Source of the DNA: a virus
Reading direction: 5' to 3' (one strand)
IMG/VR virus record: IMGVR_UViG_3300029908_000112
Coordinates: 1 to 28,966 of that record
Length of the DNA: 28,966 nt
In this document: piece after piece, positions 7,184-28,966 of the stretch
Position numbering within the stretch: position 1 is the first letter of the stretch
Layout: the number at the start of each line of letters is the position of its first letter
The notes under the pieces: generated by a model
Seen by the model: the letters and a program-made list of their open reading frames with translations, nothing else
What the model was told of the DNA's origin: nothing
Database searches by the model: none
Made by a program: the position numbers and the translations under genes

Positions 7184-8365
7184 ATGACTTATCTGTTTAA
7201 ATTTCCTACCATTATTCATATCGATCAGGTTAAAAAGGCAATTAAAGATAAGCCAGAGTTTATTGTGGCTGAACGGGAAGATTATGATATTGTAAACTAC
7301 ATGGTTAGCGATATTGAGACATTTCCAATAGTCACCAGTGAAGATGAAGCAATTCTTAGAGAATGCAGAGGACTTGTATTCTCTAAGTCCGGTAAGGTAA
7401 TTGCGCGCCGATATCACAAGTTCCATAATATTAATGAACGGACTGAAACCGAGATCAAGAATATTGATTGGTCGCGTCCATTTGTTATTCTTGAAAAACT
7501 TGATGGCTCAATGATTACTCCAATTCCTTATTTTGATGAGGATTTTAGAGTAGAATATGTCCGTTATGGCACCAAGATGGGCATTACGGAAGTTTCAATG
7601 AATGCAGAAGAGTTCGTTTCCAAGAGTGTAAACCTTTATAATGATTTTTGTATTGATTGTTTAGGTTGGGGTATGACTCCAATCTTTGAATGGTGTTCAA
7701 GGAAGAATCGAATTGTTATTGATTATGCCGAGGATAATCTAGTATTGACTGCTGTCAGATCCACTAATAATGGTCAATATATGAAATATTCGGATATGGT
7801 TCATCTGGCAAATACTTGGAAAATTCCTGTAGTTAAGGCATATGAAGGTACATTTGACGGAATTGAAAACTTTCTAAGTCATGTTAAGACGCTAGAAGGG
7901 GCTGAAGGATACGTTCTCCGCTTTGACGACGGCCATATGCTTAAGACTAAGGGGGAGTGGTACGTCGCGATTCATAGGGCTAAGGATCAAATTAATCTTG
8001 AAAAGAATGTGGTTAGTGCAATCATCAATGAACGAATTGATGACATTAAACCTTTCCTTCTCCATGATGATCGGGTGAGACTGGAAGAATTTGAAACTAA
8101 GTTTTGGAACAATATCAATGATGTAATATTTGAATTGGATATGAGTTTTAATCAATTCAAAAATCTTACTAGAAAAGAATTTGCTCTTGATTATGCCAAC
8201 AAATTTGGTTCAATGCAAAAGACTATTTTGTTTAAGATGTATGATGGCGAAACCCCTATTAATGCTATCAAAAATCTTATTAAGAAAAATTGTGGGAGTC
8301 AAACTCAAATTGATAAAGTAAAACATCTTTGGGGATATGAAAACTGGAGTTATTATAATGATTGA
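7184..8365 (+). CDS. rnlA: T4 Rnl1-type RNA ligase, 393 aa
   Basis: The nucleotidyltransferase motifs are readable: motif Ia-like ECRGLVF (residues 60-66) before the active site, motif I EKLDGSM with the adenylated Lys105, motif III-like PIFEWCS, motif IV EGYVLRF and motif V MLKTKGEWY (the KxK pair). Order, spacing and length (T4 Rnl1 is 374 aa) fit the RnlA family. It should seal 5'-phosphate and 3'-OH RNA ends, such as tRNAs cut in the anticodon loop. It stands between the separate phosphatase (5886) and kinase (8591) genes, together a complete T4-like RNA repair pathway. It starts directly after the upstream TGA. Confidence 0.92.
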   Translation: MTYLFKFPTIIHIDQVKKAIKDKPEFIVAEREDYDIVNYMVSDIETFPIVTSEDEAILRECRGLVFSKSGKVIARRYHKFHNINERTETEIKNIDWSRPFVILEKLDGSMITPIPYFDEDFRVEYVRYGTKMGITEVSMNAEEFVSKSVNLYNDFCIDCLGWGMTPIFEWCSRKNRIVIDYAEDNLVLTAVRSTNNGQYMKYSDMVHLANTWKIPVVKAYEGTFDGIENFLSHVKTLEGAEGYVLRFDDGHMLKTKGEWYVAIHRAKDQINLEKNVVSAIINERIDDIKPFLLHDDRVRLEEFETKFWNNINDVIFELDMSFNQFKNLTRKEFALDYANKFGSMQKTILFKMYDGETPINAIKNLIKKNCGSQTQIDKVKHLWGYENWSYYND

Positions 8366-8591
8366 GCATAAGAAAGGTTATGTACTCGGTGATTGGGAAT
8401 ACGGAATCACTATTGAAGATGGTGTTTTTTATTGTGAATGGTCACGACTTATGAATAGCCTTCCAAGTAAGGAACATATTGACTTTTCGAAATATCCATT
8501 GTATGGTGTTTCTATGAATGATAGAGGTGTTACACCTTCTGATGATTATTATGATGTAGTTAAGAAATTTCCAATTAAAGGTAATAAGTAA
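8358..8591 (+). CDS. Small hypothetical protein, 77 aa
   Basis: ATG 8358 overlaps the ligase gene by 8 nt and has GGAG eight bases upstream, better than an in-frame ATG at 8337. The product is a mixed alpha/beta small domain (YVLGDWEYGITIEDGVFYCEW, then SKYPLYGVSMNDRG). Its TAA shares bases with the ATG of the kinase gene (TAATG), so it is translationally coupled on both sides within the RNA-repair group. The function is unknown to me. Confidence 0.7.
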   Translation: MIEHKKGYVLGDWEYGITIEDGVFYCEWSRLMNSLPSKEHIDFSKYPLYGVSMNDRGVTPSDDYYDVVKKFPIKGNK

Positions 8592-9097
8592 TGTCTTTGT
8601 CTCCGACTTTGTATATGATGATTGGTTTGCCGGGATCTGGTAAGTCTCATTGGGTTAAAGAATTCCTTTCTAAAATGAAGGGTGATGAAAATGGACAGAT
8701 CTATTATCCAATCATTGCCAGCACGGATGATTATATTGAAAACATTGCCAAGCGCAATTGCAGAACCTATAATCAAATGTTCAAGGAGTTGATTAAGGAA
8801 GCACAAAAAGAGTGTCATGCCGAAGTTCGTTATGCAATTGCACATGATAAGGATTGTATTTGGGACCAGACTAATCTTACCCAAAAATCTCGCATGAAGA
8901 AGCTGGACAGATTTCCTGATTATTATAAGAAGGTTGCTGTGGTTGTTTCTTGTACGGACCATAATGAATGGATGCGACGTATCAATAATCGTCCGGGTAA
9001 AATTATTTCATTATCTATTTTGGATAGCATGGCGAAGAGTTTCGAGTATCCCATGCCATCCGAAGGGTTTGACGAATATGTGGAAATTTTTAATTAA
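8591..9097 (+). CDS. pseT: Polynucleotide 5'-kinase (N-terminal half of T4-type PNK), 168 aa
   Basis: The P-loop IGLPGSGKSHW (residues 11-21) is followed by ASTDDYIE, an RxxxQMFKELIKEA helix and WDQTNLTQKSR, all features of the T4 PseT kinase domain, where D in the DDY segment acts as general base. The C-terminus ends …SEGFDEYVEIFN without the phosphatase domain that T4 fuses here; that activity is encoded separately at 5886. It phosphorylates 5'-OH ends of RNA or DNA to prepare them for the ligase. TAATG overlap with the gene before. Confidence 0.88.
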   Translation: MSLSPTLYMMIGLPGSGKSHWVKEFLSKMKGDENGQIYYPIIASTDDYIENIAKRNCRTYNQMFKELIKEAQKECHAEVRYAIAHDKDCIWDQTNLTQKSRMKKLDRFPDYYKKVAVVVSCTDHNEWMRRINNRPGKIISLSILDSMAKSFEYPMPSEGFDEYVEIFN

Positions 9098-11584: not shown

Positions 11585-12112
11585 ATGATACTTTTGGATT
11601 TTAATCAGATAGCAATAGCTAATCTGATGGAATCGATTAAGGGTGAGAAGAATCCTGTAATCGATTTACCCATGATTAGACATATGATTTTAAATACAAT
11701 CAGATCAATAAAAATGAAATTAACTGGTTCAGGTGAATTAGTTATTTGTTGTGACTCTAATCATTATTGGAGAAAAGATTTATTTCCATACTATAAAAGT
11801 TCTAGAAAGAAAGATAGAGAAAAATCTCCACTTGATTGGAACAAGATATTTGAATGTTTTAACCAAGTAAAGTCTGAACTAAAGGAAGTATTCCCATATC
11901 GAATTATTGAAGTTGCTGGTGCAGAAGCTGATGACATCATTGGTGTGTTATGTAAAGAGCATCATGAAAACGAAGAAATTGTAATTGTATCAAATGATAA
12001 AGATTTTTTTCAATTACTTAAATATAGTGATGTAAAATTATATAGAACTCGTACTGAAGATAAGGGTTTTTTAATATCGGATGATAATCCTATGAGTGCT
12101 TTTTATGAGTGA
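11585..12112 (+). CDS. rnh: RNase H (T4-type, 5'-nuclease family), N-terminal part of a split gene, 175 aa
   Basis: The protein has the FEN-1/T4 RNase H order of acidic residues: LLDFNQIA at the start, CCDSNHYWRKDLFPYYKSSR, GAEADDIIGVL (metal-binding E and D residues) and VSNDKDFFQLLKY. These match the T4 rnh N-terminal half (LIDFSQIA, YWRRDFAYYYK, SSDGDFTQLHKY) in order. T4 RNase H is about 305 aa and continues into a helix-turn-helix part with further Asp ligands; here the frame ends after …TRTEDKGF… at 12112 because a GIY-YIG endonuclease gene has been inserted. The missing part is the gene at 12754. It removes RNA primers from lagging-strand fragments. Confidence 0.85.
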   Translation: MILLDFNQIAIANLMESIKGEKNPVIDLPMIRHMILNTIRSIKMKLTGSGELVICCDSNHYWRKDLFPYYKSSRKKDREKSPLDWNKIFECFNQVKSELKEVFPYRIIEVAGAEADDIIGVLCKEHHENEEIVIVSNDKDFFQLLKYSDVKLYRTRTEDKGFLISDDNPMSAFYE

Positions 12113-12761
12113 ATGTTGTGTCTATGTTCTCGAATTTCCAAACAATAAAGTTTATGTTGGTTTTACTACTAATTTTAAAAATAGAATGAGAACTCATAAA
12201 AGGTGTTCAAGATTTAAAAATTCACATAATCCTAGATTGTATAATGCAATTAGAAAATATGGTTGGGATAATATAAAGAAAAACATAGTTTATAGTGGTT
12301 GTAATAAAGATATATTATTAAATGAAGCCGAACCATTCTTAATTGATGTATTAAGTGCTACTAATGAAATGTGTGGTTATAATGTTTTAGATGGTGGAAA
12401 TATTGGCCCATATACAACTGGTGAAACAAATCCTTCCTTTAAACGAAAAGGAAGGAAAATAGAAGAATATTTTACAAAAGAACAAATTGAAAATAAAAGG
12501 AAAGCTACTTCTAACGCTGTTGCTGGTTCAAAGAATGTTCATGCAAATAAACTAAAAATAACTTCTCCTAAAGGTGAAGAATATTTTATTAATGGTGGTC
12601 TTGTAAAATTCTGTAAAGAACATTCACTTGGTTTTAATAAAATGTTCAAATGGATAAATAAAGGAATAATACCATCAATAAAGAAGTCGCATACAACAAA
12701 ATTAAATAATATGGAATTATTGAATAATTGTATTGGATGGAAAGTTGAAAAATATGGATAG
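12105..12761 (+). CDS. GIY-YIG homing endonuclease inserted in RNase H gene, 218 aa
   Basis: The N-terminus shows the GIY-YIG nuclease core: VYVLEFPNNKVYVGFT (the GIY and YIG strands in degenerate form), then KNRMRTHKR with the conserved Arg and the helix RLYNAIRKYGW. The C-terminal half (KITSPKGEEYFINGGLVKFCKEH, then FNKMFKWINKG) is a NUMOD-like DNA-binding repeat segment, as in T4 and cyanophage homing enzymes. The ATG at 12105 lies 5 nt before the upstream stop and the gene ends 8 nt inside the next RNase H piece. There is no room for a group I intron around it (only about 40 nt spare), so it is a free-standing endonuclease that split the host gene. Confidence 0.85.
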   Translation: MSECCVYVLEFPNNKVYVGFTTNFKNRMRTHKRCSRFKNSHNPRLYNAIRKYGWDNIKKNIVYSGCNKDILLNEAEPFLIDVLSATNEMCGYNVLDGGNIGPYTTGETNPSFKRKGRKIEEYFTKEQIENKRKATSNAVAGSKNVHANKLKITSPKGEEYFINGGLVKFCKEHSLGFNKMFKWINKGIIPSIKKSHTTKLNNMELLNNCIGWKVEKYG

Positions 12762-13137
12762 AATTGTAACAGTAAAAGAAGCAAAGTTGTTCTTGAAAGA
12801 ACAAATTATTAGAGGTGATCGTGGGGATGGAGTTCCTAACATTCTTTCACCAGCAAATTGCCTAGCAATAGGCCAGCGTCAAAAATCAGTCATGTCAGTC
12901 AAATTAAAAGAATGGGTAAAACAAGATCCGATTGATTTTTGTGATCCTCATATGTTAGAAAGATATCTTACTAACGAAAAATTAATTGATCTCAATTATA
13001 CTCCGGAACATATTAGACTTTCAATATTAGAAGAATTTGATAAGCAGGAAAATAAAAAGTCAGGGAATTTGTTCAATTATTTCTTTGAACATTCACTCAA
13101 ACAACATATGCAAAATTTACAAGATTTTAAACAATAA
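12754..13137 (+). CDS. rnh: RNase H (T4-type), C-terminal part of split gene, 127 aa
   Basis: The sequence resumes with IVTVKEAKLFLKEQIIRGDR GDGVPNI, matching the T4 RNase H stretch after its insertion point (…KGDKKDNV) that carries the remaining metal-binding Asp residues and the H2TH-type motif, then helices ending in NLQDFKQ. It has its own ATG (12754) overlapping the stop of the endonuclease by 8 nt and so is likely made as a separate polypeptide. An active enzyme would need both chains to assemble, since the active-site acids are divided between them. No intron-like sequence flanks it. Confidence 0.8.
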   Translation: MDRIVTVKEAKLFLKEQIIRGDRGDGVPNILSPANCLAIGQRQKSVMSVKLKEWVKQDPIDFCDPHMLERYLTNEKLIDLNYTPEHIRLSILEEFDKQENKKSGNLFNYFFEHSLKQHMQNLQDFKQ

Positions 13138-25757: not shown

Positions 25758-26135
25758 ATGAATTTTAATCATATCTGTCTAAGTATGATTGTTGGTGGTG
25801 CTACTCTTTTTGGTTTATCATTTGTATTAGAGAATACAATGGCTAAACCTGTTGTAGCACCAGTGGTAAAGGAAATATGTGGTTCACCGGCAGAAATTCT
25901 GGCCTTTATTGCTGAAAAGGAATTGGTTCCACTTTATATTGGGCAACTAGATTCACCTGTAACAAATAATGATCAAGTCGAATTTTGGCTTGATGTCAAA
26001 AAGAATGTGATTGTTGTACTTACTCATAAGGATGTTCCAGAAGAAGAACTTAAAGAAGTTTGCTTCCTTGGTGCATCGCAAGTTGGTAAGTTTGATTTAG
26101 AATCGCTGAAAAAGATTATCGGGGAACGAGTATGA
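25758..26135 (+). CDS. Membrane-anchored or exported protein, 125 aa
   Basis: Residues ~6-25 (ICLSMIVGGATLFGLSFVLE) form a signal or anchor helix, then MAKPVVAP. The rest is a soluble alpha/beta domain (FIAEKELVPLYIGQLDSPVT, then NVIVVLTHKDVPEEELKEVC) with a Cys pair (C-G and VCF) that may form a disulfide if exported. RBS AGGAATAACAA precedes ATG 25758. Function unknown. Confidence 0.68.
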   Translation: MNFNHICLSMIVGGATLFGLSFVLENTMAKPVVAPVVKEICGSPAEILAFIAEKELVPLYIGQLDSPVTNNDQVEFWLDVKKNVIVVLTHKDVPEEELKEVCFLGASQVGKFDLESLKKIIGERV

Positions 26136-26153
26136 ATGTATCAAGAGTAGGTT

Positions 26154-26354
26154 TTGGTTTATATTAAAAGAAAGTGTGATACACGTGCTTTTCGAAAAGC
26201 ATGGAAGCCGGGTAAGTATATTATATTGAATCCGGGTTCAAATAAGATTTTGTCTTTTATTGAACTTAAATATGATGAAGAAAATCGCCTTGGTGCTCCG
26301 TGGACACCTACACGATGTGATTTAATTGAAAACGATTGGGAGATATTATTGTGA
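26154..26354 (+). CDS. Short protein with a Tad2 (DUF2829)-like C-terminus, 66 aa, TTG start
   Basis: The C-terminal part APWTPTRCDLIENDWEILL closely follows the W-x-P-(S/T)-x-x-D-(I/L)-x-x-x-D-W-(E/x)-(V/I) tail that ends DUF2829 proteins, a family that includes Tad2, the anti-Thoeris sponge that binds gcADPR signals. The first half (TRAFRKAWKPGKYIILNPG) matches their basic strand region. Normal Tad2 is longer, about 90-100 aa, with an N-terminal FxEALxxLKxGxxVxR part; that is missing or in another frame here (an ATG at 26132 is out of frame). The TTG start lacks a good ribosome site. Low certainty. Confidence 0.45.
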   Translation: MVYIKRKCDTRAFRKAWKPGKYIILNPGSNKILSFIELKYDEENRLGAPWTPTRCDLIENDWEILL

Positions 26355-26536
26355 TTTTACTTGTAGTTATTTTGTGGTTACTCTTGGGATTTTCTCTTAT
26401 TATGATTGATTTTGATAAATCGAATCGAGTCCCATCTGTAATGATACATATTTTGTATCTTATATTTGGGCCGTTTGTGTGGAGTTTTTGTTTCTTTATT
26501 CTTCTCATTTCAGTGGTGAAGGAGCTTAATAACTAA
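26351..26536 (+). CDS. Two-helix membrane protein, 61 aa, GTG start
   Basis: The GTG at 26351 overlaps the previous stop (GTGA), with GGGAG eight bases upstream. Hydrophobic runs ILLVVILWLLLGFSLIMI (residues ~1-18) and ILYLIFGPFVWSFCFFILLI (~34-53) suggest two membrane spans with a basic turn DKSNR between. Small phage membrane proteins of this shape include holins, but no functional proof is visible. TAATG overlap with the phosphoesterase gene. Confidence 0.6.
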   Translation: MILLVVILWLLLGFSLIMIDFDKSNRVPSVMIHILYLIFGPFVWSFCFFILLISVVKELNN

Positions 26537-27114
26537 TGGCTGAAATTTATCTTGCAAGTGATCATCATTTCAACCACGCCAATATTCTGAAATTCCTCAA
26601 TCCAGATGGAACAAAACTTCGGCCAGACTTCTCTTGTCTTGATGAAATGAATGAAGAACTTATTAGGCGACATAATTCGGTAGTCGGTCAGTATGACCAT
26701 TTCTATTGTGGTGGTGATTTTGCCTTCGGACCAGCATTTAAAATTGGACCTATCATCTCCAGAATGAACGGTAAGAAGCGTCTGATTCTTGGTAATCACG
26801 ATGATGTGATTAAGCAGGAACTTTATAAGTATTTTGATAAGATTATGCTCTGGCGCGTATTCAGGGAAGAAAAACTGGTTGTAACCCACGTTCCAATCCC
26901 TGTAAGCCAGTTCAAAACTGCAGATGAAGTCAATCTTCATGGGCATCTTCATTCTGGAAAAATGATGGTAGACTCCGTTAAGTGGCCAGCAAAAGAAGAT
27001 CCACATTATATTTCAATGTGTGTGGAGCACACAAACTATACGCCGCTCCACATTACTGAATTTGTGAAAAGAATCGGGATTCCCGCTGTACGTCCGATGA
27101 ATTTGGTGCATTAG
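26536..27114 (+). CDS. Calcineurin-like metallophosphoesterase, 192 aa
   Basis: All motifs of the family are present in order: ASDHHFNH (D-x-H), CGGDFAFG (GD), LGNHDDV (GNHD), TTH-type VVTHVPIP, and NLHGHLHSGK (HGHxH). These coordinate two metal ions. Similar small phosphoesterases occur in many phages and may hydrolyse cyclic nucleotides, Ap4A or 3'-ended nucleic acids; the substrate cannot be told from sequence. Cytoplasmic, no signal. ATG 26536 overlaps the previous stop. Confidence 0.9.
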   Translation: MAEIYLASDHHFNHANILKFLNPDGTKLRPDFSCLDEMNEELIRRHNSVVGQYDHFYCGGDFAFGPAFKIGPIISRMNGKKRLILGNHDDVIKQELYKYFDKIMLWRVFREEKLVVTHVPIPVSQFKTADEVNLHGHLHSGKMMVDSVKWPAKEDPHYISMCVEHTNYTPLHITEFVKRIGIPAVRPMNLVH

Positions 27115-27176
27115 CATGTGTAGCATGTAATATAACAAATTCTTCTTGTATTGAGATTATTACAAGGGCAAGAGAT

Positions 27177-27323
27177 ATGGATTTATCTGAGGCTGCAAAA
27201 AAACATCAGGAAATGGTTTATTCACAAGTTGTTGTAACATTCCCTGAATGGGAGCCAATTGCAAGTTTAGAAAGAGGATTAATCACACCAGCACCGACTG
27301 TGTATCGGACGACAAGCGGATGA
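27177..27323 (+). CDS. Small hypothetical protein, 48 aa
   Basis: ATG 27177 has AAGGG eight bases upstream. The product reads MDLSEAAKKHQEMVYSQVVV then FPEWEPIASLERGL and TVYRTTSG, a helix followed by a strand-like segment. The same frame is open upstream, through a Cys-rich stretch (CVACNITNSSC), into the end of the phosphoesterase gene, so a longer protein with an unusual start is possible. Ends just before the tmRNA promoter. Confidence 0.5.
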   Translation: MDLSEAAKKHQEMVYSQVVVTFPEWEPIASLERGLITPAPTVYRTTSG

Positions 27324-27341
27324 AATAATTTAAAATAAGAG

Positions 27342-27370
27342 TTGACTTCTTAAGCTAGATATTGTATAAA
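27342..27370 (+). promoter_or_regulatory. Sigma70-like promoter of the tmRNA gene (TTGACT-17-TATAAA)
   Basis: -35 TTGACT (27342-27347), 17-nt spacer starting TCTTAAG, -10 TATAAA (27365-27370). The predicted start, about 27377, is a few nt before the tmRNA acceptor piece. Confidence 0.8.
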
Positions 27371-27372
27371 TA
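27365..27372 (+). promoter_or_regulatory. T4-type late promoter octamer TATAAATA
   Basis: It overlaps the -10 of the sigma70-like promoter, so the tmRNA might be transcribed in both phases. Confidence 0.4.
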
Positions 27373-27376
27373 ATAA

Positions 27377-27650
27377 TGAAACGATGACGTTGTTAAAGAA
27401 AAGGTAAGACGGGGTTTCAATACCCCCGCCTCCACCATAAACTCATTAAGGTGAGTTTAACTATGGGGGCGAACGGTTCGATTATCTTGGAAGAGAGCAA
27501 AAGAGTTTCCGGTAAGAAACGACCGCCAATCAGTTCAAAACCTGTAAATGTCAACGACAATTACAACACTGCAGAGTATGCACTAGCTGCATAACCCTAC
27601 TGGAGTTTGGCAGTTTTCTTAGCAACAGAAAAACTGCCGCCTATTTGTGA
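27377..27650 (+). ncRNA. ssrA: Permuted two-piece tmRNA (ssrA)
   Basis: The order is that of a circularly permuted tmRNA: the acceptor piece comes first (T-arm-like GGGGT-TTCAAT-ACCCC, acceptor strand CGCCTCC 27427-27433, discriminator A, CCA 27435-27437), then a joining hairpin TAAACTCA/TGAGTTTA (27438-27464), then the coding piece starting GGGGGCG (27465-27471), which pairs with CGCCTCC, followed by the conserved GGTTCGA. A pseudoknot (GTTTC/GAAAC with CGGT/ACCG, 27505-27525) precedes the tag reading frame, which encodes (V)NDNYNTAEYALAA and TAA (27550-27594). After it, GGCAGTTTT/AAAACTGCC forms a hairpin. The 3' end of the coding piece, and the 5' end, are estimates. tmRNA rescues stalled ribosomes and tags the protein for proteolysis. 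Confidence 0.92.
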
Positions 27651-27937
27651 TGCGAAAGTTCAGGAAGATTACACCATCTAGGTGTTGACAGGGATGTACG
27701 CGCTTCACACTTACGGTTCCATTCCCGGTAATGTTAGCTGCGGTGAAACATTTGAATTGAATGGATGGTAGGGTAATTTTGGTCCCTTATATCCAAATCG
27801 TAGGCAACAGCGTTAATGTTGTAAGCTGGAACAGCAGCAGCTTTAAGTGGAGTGGCGTCCACACTGGCTCGACCAATTTAAAGTTTTAGAACTAACAGGA
27901 AAATTAAATGGTTACTTCCTGTGAATGACAACAAGGT
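27651..27937 (+). other. Non-coding, highly structured stretch; possible first exon of a split gene
   Basis: No long gene. A short frame 27694-27771 reads MYALHTYGSIPGNVSCGETF and continues ELNGW before a stop; it could be an exon. Around it are many stems: TTCAC/GTGAA (27705-27745), GGATG/TATCC with AGGG/CCCT at 27763-27796, CAACA/TGTTG (27808-27824), GTGGA/TCCAC (27847-27862), TTGGTC/GACCAA and ACAGGAA/TTCCTGT (27897-27921). This may be the 5' part of an intron. Confidence 0.3.
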
Positions 27938-28022
27938 GTTGAGAGACTCGGTAAATCCTAACCATAGGGAACATCTAGTCAAGTTCTAAATCTACTTGAA
28001 GTTGGGATTGATAGTCCCAATG
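27938..28022 (+). other. Group I intron-like core (P7-P8-P9)
   Basis: GTTGAGAGACTCGG (27938-27951) resembles the group I R element and AACATCTAGTC (27970-27980) resembles the S element; GACT (27945-27948) and AGTC (27977-27980) form P7. CCTA/TAGG (27957-27968) could be P8, CAAGT/ACTTG (27980-27998) P9, and TTGGGA/TCCCAA (28002-28020) P9.1, followed by G28022 as a possible terminal G. P3-P6 and the 5' splice site are not convincing by eye. Confidence 0.35.
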
Positions 28023-28132
28023 ATACATTCTCTCCAGATAATATGTATTATGCTGAAATTATTAGTTCAGGTCATGAACGAGATTCATCTGGTGATCATG
28101 TAGTTTTATGGAAAAAAAAGAAAGAGATTTAA
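28023..28132 (+). pseudogene. Start-less coding segment, possible second exon
   Basis: The frame reads DTFSPDNMYYAEIISSGHER then DSSGDHVVLWKKKKEI and stop (28130-28132), with protein-like composition but no start codon with a ribosome site (the first ATG, 28043, would give 29 aa). It directly follows the intron-like region. It may be the second exon of a gene whose first exon is at about 27694, or the remnant of a truncated gene. Confidence 0.35.
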
Positions 28133-28660
28133 ATGACAACAATAGCACCAGTAAAGCCAGTAATTTGGCCACACGAAGATGTAAATGCTCTTAATGCATT
28201 TTATGGTAATCCAAGAGGTCGTAACGGTAATTCGTCACCAGCATGGGAATCCGCTAATTTAGTAACTTGGATTCCTCCTTATCCTATGTTTTATTCAGAT
28301 GAGGCAAAAACACCACTTAAGCGATTACGTGTTCATAAGAAGTGTTTAGACGCTTTTAACGCAGCCTTTAAAGAAGTTCTTGATACACTTGGTATTGAAT
28401 ATATCAAGGAGCATCGATTAGATATTTCTGGTGGATTATTTTGTTACCGCGTAGAACGTGGTGGTTCCAGATTATCAGTTCATTCATGGGCATGTGCCAT
28501 TGATATGGACCCCGGTCACAATCCTTTTCCACATCATTATGTTGCTGGTTGTAAAATGATTGATCCGAAGTTTGTGGCTATCTTAACCAAGCATGGATTC
28601 TGCTGGCGCGGCGCTGGAAATGACATAGATCCGATGCACTTCCAATGCGCTAGGCATTAA
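28133..28660 (+). CDS. M15-type peptidase (D-Ala-D-Ala/endolysin-like), 175 aa
   Basis: The zinc motif SVHSWACAIDMDP (His117, Asp124) and DPMHFQ (His169) are the M15 ligand set; an arginine region before (YRVERGGSRLS) fits the fold. It differs clearly from the other M15 protein at 1551, with a longer N-terminal segment containing WIPPYPMFYS. It may be an endolysin or a virion-associated peptidase acting on peptidoglycan cross-links. The start ATG 28133 follows AAAGAGATTTAA and abuts the upstream stop. Lies immediately before the gp33-like gene. Confidence 0.82.
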   Translation: MTTIAPVKPVIWPHEDVNALNAFYGNPRGRNGNSSPAWESANLVTWIPPYPMFYSDEAKTPLKRLRVHKKCLDAFNAAFKEVLDTLGIEYIKEHRLDISGGLFCYRVERGGSRLSVHSWACAIDMDPGHNPFPHHYVAGCKMIDPKFVAILTKHGFCWRGAGNDIDPMHFQCARH

Positions 28661-28664
28661 AATA

Positions 28665-28913
28665 ATGGCTAAGAAAGATAATAATATTACCCAACTCTTC
28701 GGAAAGAATGCTTTTTCCGAAGAAGTTGAAGAACTTGTTTGGATGAAAGATATCACTTATATGGAAGCGATTCTTGAGTGGTGTGATACGAATAAGATTG
28801 AAATTGAACAAATAGTAGGTTATATTAAAAGGGATTTAAATCTTAAAGCTTTATTGCAGATGGAAGGCGAAAAGGCCAATATGATTCAAAAAACTGCAAG
28901 GCTAGACTTTTGA
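28665..28913 (+). CDS. Late-transcription coactivator gp33-like protein, 82 aa
   Basis: The pattern FSEEVEELVWMKDITYMEAI, then LEWCDTNKIEIEQIV and a tail LLQMEGEKANMI matches T4 gp33 and its relatives (F-S-x-x-V-E-x-L-V…Y-x-E-A-I-L…C-D/E…I-E…E-A-E-x-x-N-x-L/I). gp33 bridges the sliding clamp and RNA polymerase at late promoters recognised by the sigma factor gp55. The six TATAAATA octamers in the window would be its targets. Length fits. Overlaps the next start by TGATG. Confidence 0.82.
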   Translation: MAKKDNNITQLFGKNAFSEEVEELVWMKDITYMEAILEWCDTNKIEIEQIVGYIKRDLNLKALLQMEGEKANMIQKTARLDF

Positions 28914-28966
28914 TGTTGACCATCTTTTTAATGCTGCTTTTCTCATATTTTCTTTTGATTCTTCCG
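28913..28966 (+). CDS. Partial membrane protein (5' end)
   Basis: ATG 28913 overlaps the gp33 stop. The 18 visible codons are strongly hydrophobic (LTIFLMLLFSYFLLILP), the start of a membrane segment or signal peptide. The gene runs out of the window. Confidence 0.5.
   Translation, partial: MLTIFLMLLFSYFLLILP

Follow-up and report, generated by a model that had tools for sequence, protein, structure and literature searches.

A two-piece tmRNA gene of alphaproteobacterial type in a T4-like phage contig, with a candidate hybrid promoter and gene 33 downstream

The window, by which we mean the whole 28,966-nt stretch of virus record IMGVR_UViG_3300029908_000112 (IMG/VR), carries a tmRNA gene with its own promoter elements, followed by an M15-type peptidase or endolysin gene and gene 33 (Table 1). 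Several markers identify the contig as T4-like: a PhoH-like protein, RNA ligase 1, a split RNase H-like exonuclease gene and gp33. One contig protein of unknown role has relatives in Ochrobactrum phage OC, Caulobacter phage Cr30, Sinorhizobium phiM12 and Rhizobium RHph_I1_18, and the hosts probably belong to the alphaproteobacteria. A nucleotide search of window positions 26000-28966 against annotated phages gave zero matches; with the tmRNA alone, the same kind of search returned only short pieces of the Melnitz and Mosig SsrA genes (E 0.9).

Two features lie further upstream in the window. The RNase H-like exonuclease gene (11585-13137) is apparently interrupted by a GIY-YIG endonuclease gene inserted at 12096-12761, and its two halves match adjoining stretches of the relative G001 (96742-97176 and 97198-97569). 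At 7184-9097, RNA ligase 1 is encoded near an AAA_33 kinase-like protein, recalling the RNA repair pair of T4; such a pair would fit a phage facing RNA-cutting defences.

Table 1. Features of the tmRNA locus and its downstream genes (positions in the window).
Feature	Position	Strand	Description	Evidence
-35-like box	27342..27347	+	TTGACT (5/6 of TTGACA), exactly 17 nt ahead of the octamer	sequence
Late promoter octamer	27365..27372	+	TATAAATA, T4-type, also in the -10 place of a sigma-70-like promoter; predicted +1 at 27378	
Acceptor piece	27378..27437	+	P2 5' strand, T arm, acceptor 3' strand, A73, encoded CCA	RF04321/RF01849 alignments, covariation
P2 helix, 5' strand	27400..27407	+	pairs with 27482-27488	paired in 30-37/38 sequences, 2 to 5 pair types per column pair
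T arm	27411..27426	+	stem 27411-27415/27422-27426, 6-nt loop UUCAAU (atypical)	fold, alignment
Acceptor 3' strand	27427-27433	+		
Discriminator A73	27434	+		
Encoded CCA	27435-27437	+		
Intervening segment	27438..27464	+	27 nt, predicted to be excised in processing; 9-bp hairpin 27438-27446/27451-27459	fold; model position
Coding piece	27465..27645	+	acceptor 5' strand, D-loop region, P2 3' strand, PK1 hairpin, tag, 3' hairpin; 3' end approximate	models, fold
Acceptor 5' strand	27465-27471	+	G1 at 27465, G3 at 27467	
Tag reading frame	27550..27594	+	GTC AAC GAC AAT TAC AAC ACT GCA GAG TAT GCA CTA GCT GCA TAA; GUC resume codon to UAA; product VNDNYNTAEYALAA	
3' hairpin	27609..27638	+	GGCAGUUUU...AAAACUGCC; loop with alpha-tmRNA motif (UU)AGCAACAGAA	RF01849 alignment
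M15-type peptidase / endolysin gene	28133..28660	+	between tmRNA and gene 33	
Gene 33	28665..28913	+	late-transcription coactivator, 1070 nt 3' of the tag stop	PF16805, 1.4e-18

Covariance-model searches confirmed that region 27378-27645 is, as judged by its sequence, a phage-borne, circularly permuted (two-piece) tmRNA gene of the alphaproteobacterial type. The permuted-tmRNA model RF04321 matched 27378-27594 on the plus strand over its full length (model positions 1-213) with 109.1 bits against a cut-off of 47 (E 1e-20 for the window). A search with RF01849 (alpha_tmRNA) had been proposed by the first-pass annotation, which named the lack of a covariance match as a result that would speak against its call; it returned a full-model match at 27325-27640 with 79.8 bits against a cut-off of 50 (E 2e-20). 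With both scores far over their cut-offs and the contig T4-like, that call of a phage-encoded, circularly permuted tmRNA was upheld. Rfam gave no further match at E<=1 within 27100-28200, and ARAGORN did not report the tmRNA at 27378-27594. The folding free energy of 27378-27645 was -78.8 kcal/mol, compared with -59.6 (sd 4.95) for shuffled sequences (z -3.9), and none of 200 shuffles was equally low.

The acceptor piece, joining hairpin, coding piece and paired acceptor strands were all found where they had been placed, in the permuted order. All seven acceptor-stem pairs form, and G3-U70 (G27467-U27431) together with discriminator A27434 makes up the alanine identity set. This U70-G3 pair is invariant in 38/38 aligned phage tmRNAs, pairing of the P2 helix and T stem in the same alignment is kept across as many as five pair types, and compensated acceptor-stem variation occurs in L281, L328, L329 and L346. 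The 3' hairpin carries the GGCAACAGAA motif of alpha_tmRNA, with AGCAACAGAA in its loop; the motif is identical in viral contig L138 and shows one change in L140. Of the candidate PK1-like pseudoknot, the first hairpin (CGGU/ACCG) was aligned by RF04321, which scores this hairpin only. In the window, the T loop has 6 nt closed by U53-A61, or alternatively 8 nt on a 4-bp stem, where a 5-bp stem and a 7-nt loop are usual, though not a strict mark of the family; lengths other than 7 nt also occur in a few further phage members. This odd loop may explain the ARAGORN miss and could weaken the tRNA-like fold.

Pattern and covariance searches yielded at least 70 parsed phage permuted tmRNAs including that of the window, at least 58 of them distinct. 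Since the relatives were mostly drawn by the seed pattern GCCTCCACCA ... GGGGGC, the frequencies given here describe this sample, that is, the matches listed, and the 58 are distinct but not independent because the redundancy filter was a simple shared-word cut. A 14-base genome scan was too unspecific. Complete permuted tmRNA genes lie unannotated in the GenBank records of Caulobacter phages phiCbK, CcrBL10, CcrPW and CcrColossus and of Rhodobacter phages RcSimone-Hastad and RcRudolph (L319-L324), and Rhizobium RHph_I1_18 also has one; no tmRNA model match was found in phiM12, Cr30 or OC. The RcRudolph record places a hypothetical protein over the tmRNA. Phage OC encodes a putative ArfA, an alternative ribosome-rescue factor, adjoining RNase H (L315 5314-5511), which hints that phages of this group may swap rescue systems.

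Phage tmRNA genes had been described as rare in the first-pass annotation. The gene is indeed phage-borne, but two-piece phage tmRNAs are already known, accounting for 53 of 133 unique phage tmRNA structures in one study (PMC9004378), and a 2025 tmRNA database holds 79 phage sequences (PMC11915505). The window gene thus joins a published class that includes the SsrA genes of Methylophilales phage Melnitz and Pelagibacter phage Mosig (PMC9004378). Both phages are likewise T4-like and carry a permuted alpha-type tmRNA with gene 33 just downstream, a neighbourhood already noted for Melnitz (PMC9004378), and Melnitz has TTGACA-N17-TATAAATA at the same distance as the window. The resume codon, by contrast, is GCA in Melnitz and GGC in Mosig, and Melnitz has an intervening segment of 142 nt as well as a reported glutamine riboswitch, whereas the window has no such riboswitch match. 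Alphaproteobacterial chromosomal ssrA genes (RF01849) share gene order, acceptor and T arms, P2, tag register and 3' hairpin motif with the window; they differ in their alanine resume codon, in a 5' leader hairpin present in most and in the octamer, which was found at 0/33.

The full tag would read (A)VNDNYNTAEYALAA. Its ALAA end, followed by the stop, agrees with the earlier reading and is of the xLAA kind that serves as a protease signal. That reading had also pointed out the lack of a clear alanine resume codon, leaving the start as "GTC or AAC"; alanine is indeed missing, and the register settles the start as GTC, because GUC (Val) lies 2 nt past the conserved UAA, in the same register as the alanine resume codon of relatives. 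An alanine codon at this place is usual in bacteria but does not strictly define alpha_tmRNA. By automatic frame reading, resume codons in distinct phage genes among the matches listed were GCA (37), GTC (7), GCC (5), GCT (4) and others (4). Five GTC cases look unambiguous (the window, L138, L139/L140, CcrPW and CcrColossus), and the remaining ones hinge on frame choice. An unusual resume codon or tag start (TTT, CAC or GAT, again by automatic reading) appears in L295, L340, L308 and L301. The closest Val-tag relatives, viral contigs L138 and L139/L140, share with the window the TGTAAATGTCAACGACAATTAC tag start, the late octamer and a gene 33 located ~1.1-1.2 kb downstream; they differ in their tags (VNDNYPMAMAA and VNDNYNIVGKVLAA), in having no -35 box at 17 nt and in their longer intervening segments (40 and 119 nt).

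All 33 alphaproteobacterial chromosomal tmRNA genes sampled had an alanine resume codon, and none had valine. These model-found genes are the better control; the exact Val-tag pattern occurred in 0/385 alphaproteobacterial genomes and the matching Ala pattern in 14/190, a comparison that is weak by itself because the Ala pattern fits one codon spelling only. The Helicobacter pylori tmRNA shares a valine resume codon, although there it is GUA rather than GUC, in a chromosomal gene with a different tag, and in E. coli both GUA and GUC reportedly work (PMC2862035). A valine resume codon should thus not be disabling. Given its frequency of 0/33 in the sampled alphaproteobacterial genes, the phage origin of the tag could be read directly in proteomes.

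The first encoded tag residue differs from that of host tags, which would suit a decoy or competitor: the phage RNA might titrate SmpB or displace host tmRNA, as proposed for the tag-less RNA of phage DS6A, or its altered tag might let products evade the adaptor or protease of the host. Host tmRNA is inhibited by a tmRNA-like domain on its own, such as that of DS6A (PMC11915505; PMC4131195). However, a decoy would not need the complete ALAA-ending frame that is kept here, with similar ends in nearly all relatives, and Ala-Asn-Asp is retained in most phage tags. We regard a decoy role as quite improbable.

The first-pass annotation had also given the tmRNA its own promoter. A promoter is present and appears to be more than sigma-70-like, with the hybrid arrangement TTGACT-N17-TATAAATA that is common to many phage tmRNA genes. 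The octamer of T4 late promoters has its first T at position -13, and these promoters lack a -35 element (PMC2988020); with the same spacing here, +1 would be 27378, where the covariance model begins. An octamer about one helical turn before the start, with gp33 encoded on the contig, is the sequence arrangement of a T4-type late promoter. TATAAAT starts 11-16 nt (mostly 12 or 13) ahead of the model start in 24 of the 58 distinct phage tmRNAs among the matches listed, compared with 0.09 expected from the flank rate. The eighth base was A in all 24, although the search required seven bases. The other 34 lack the exact octamer, some having one-mismatch versions. Counted over the window, intergenic octamers are moderately enriched only (5, against a mean of 1.4 and a maximum of 5 for permuted octamers).

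A -35 box (>=5/6) precedes 19 of 26 phage tmRNA octamers among the matches listed, always at 17 nt; elsewhere in phage loci, 5 of 86 octamers have one (Fisher p 1e-11). When TTGAC[AT]-17-TA sites in the same contigs were compared, TATAAATA was present at 17/20 tmRNA sites (among the matches listed) and 0/187 elsewhere (p 3e-22), where TATAAT was the commonest -10 sequence; both tests treat sites as independent, which those of related phages are not. The tmRNA promoter escaped a generic sigma-70 scan of the window, in which position 6 of the -10 box had to be T. From these sequence comparisons the promoter appears to combine a host-type -35 box with a T4 late box, a pairing that in this sample is specific to tmRNA genes; some octamers may act as nothing more than -10 boxes. 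Early and late promoters that overlap have been proposed in other T4-like phages, RB49 and cyanophages (PMC2984593). We found no earlier report of a hybrid early/late promoter at tmRNA genes in the literature searched, and the design appears to be previously unreported. A reading of the tmRNA as a purely late gene was dropped once the -35 box was found at 17 nt.

The frequency and fixed spacing of that -35 box would also suit a purely early or constitutive gene, with the octamer as a mere sigma-70 -10 box and the tmRNA tagging host proteins for recycling or maintaining the machinery. Early action was postulated by the authors of the Melnitz study (PMC9004378), and phiCbK-like Caulobacter phages retain TTGACA at 17-18 nt in the absence of the octamer. 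Against this stand the TATAAT of other sigma-70-like sites in the same contigs, the invariant eighth base and the start-site distance, which agrees with a late box; moreover, 7 of the 26 tmRNA octamers among the matches listed, those of L138 and L140 included, have no -35 box. Overall, a purely early gene seems fairly unlikely to us.

The promoter also bears on whether the gene is a passenger or a degenerating host-derived gene, non-functional in the phage. Its patchy occurrence among relatives, the odd 6-nt T loop and the non-alanine resume codon would fit such a remnant, but acceptor pairing, G3-U70, CCA, tag frame and stop are all intact, covariation extends over diverse phages, and the host leader hairpin and promoter have been exchanged for a phage promoter conserved across lineages. 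We give this reading very little credence: an early gene and a decoy are the main rivals, and a dead passenger is unlikely.

Using a gp33 profile built from the window copy, we located gene 33 on the same strand 3' of the tmRNA in 28 of the 28 loci where it was found (23 distinct), at distances of 89-3786 nt. Many viral contigs are short, and a gene 33 or tmRNA missing from a record is not absent from the phage on that account. Neither gp55 nor gp45 was seen in this 28,966-nt fragment. In relative G001 (176 kb), no 7-mer is more enriched ahead of ORFs than ATAAATA, which precedes not only the genes for tail sheath, tail tube, major head and scaffold but also the counterpart (orthologue) of the window endolysin. 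Relatives carrying the endolysin (60-67% identity) have no tmRNA in their records; the tmRNA gene would therefore be dispensable, or gained and lost.

We infer processing, charging, tagging, timing and benefit from the features read in the sequence, namely RNA identity and structure, the promoter elements with their conservation, and the gene 33 linkage. A precursor transcript would start at about 27378, and host tRNA-processing enzymes would cut at the encoded CCA (27437) and at G1 (27465), leaving two pieces held together by the acceptor and P2 helices. Host AlaRS would charge the tmRNA via G3-U70, and SmpB and EF-Tu of the host would bring it to stalled ribosomes; host SmpB is assumed because no smpB was seen in the window. 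Addition of A-VNDNYNTAEYALAA would free the ribosome and mark the product for ClpXP-type proteases. The hybrid promoter would be used by host RNA polymerase from the start of infection, then by gp55/gp33/gp45-directed polymerase once sigma-70 transcription fades. Trans-translation could in this way continue after host gene shut-off, at a time when cleaved mRNAs yield many non-stop messages. Thus, the locus probably holds a working phage tmRNA that relies on host SmpB, AlaRS and processing and is transcribed early to late from the hybrid promoter, sustaining trans-translation. To a broader proposal we give about even weight: that several phage lineages have put a captured tmRNA behind a purpose-built hybrid promoter near gene 33, with one start site at the mature 5' end for host and then phage transcription, so that trans-translation would be phage-controlled throughout infection and the tags, Val-resume tags included, would be phage-specific marks.

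The sole published guess at timing that we found (early; PMC9004378) relies on a single predicted sigma-70 promoter. With a promoter design that is conserved in many phages but missing from chromosomal tmRNA genes and from the other promoters of those phages, the question of why phages carry tmRNA genes becomes simple to test. Such tmRNA genes are overlooked by ARAGORN and by standard phage annotation.

Between the tmRNA and the endolysin gene (27645-28130), about 340-480 nt have no plausible gene. A search for a second RNA in this interval found no Rfam family and no sequence relative beyond the tmRNA 3' hairpin. Excess folding there is modest (z -2.5 for a long stretch in 27645-28130 and -1.3 for 27650-27995). 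A gap of comparable size lies 3' of the tmRNA in L140.
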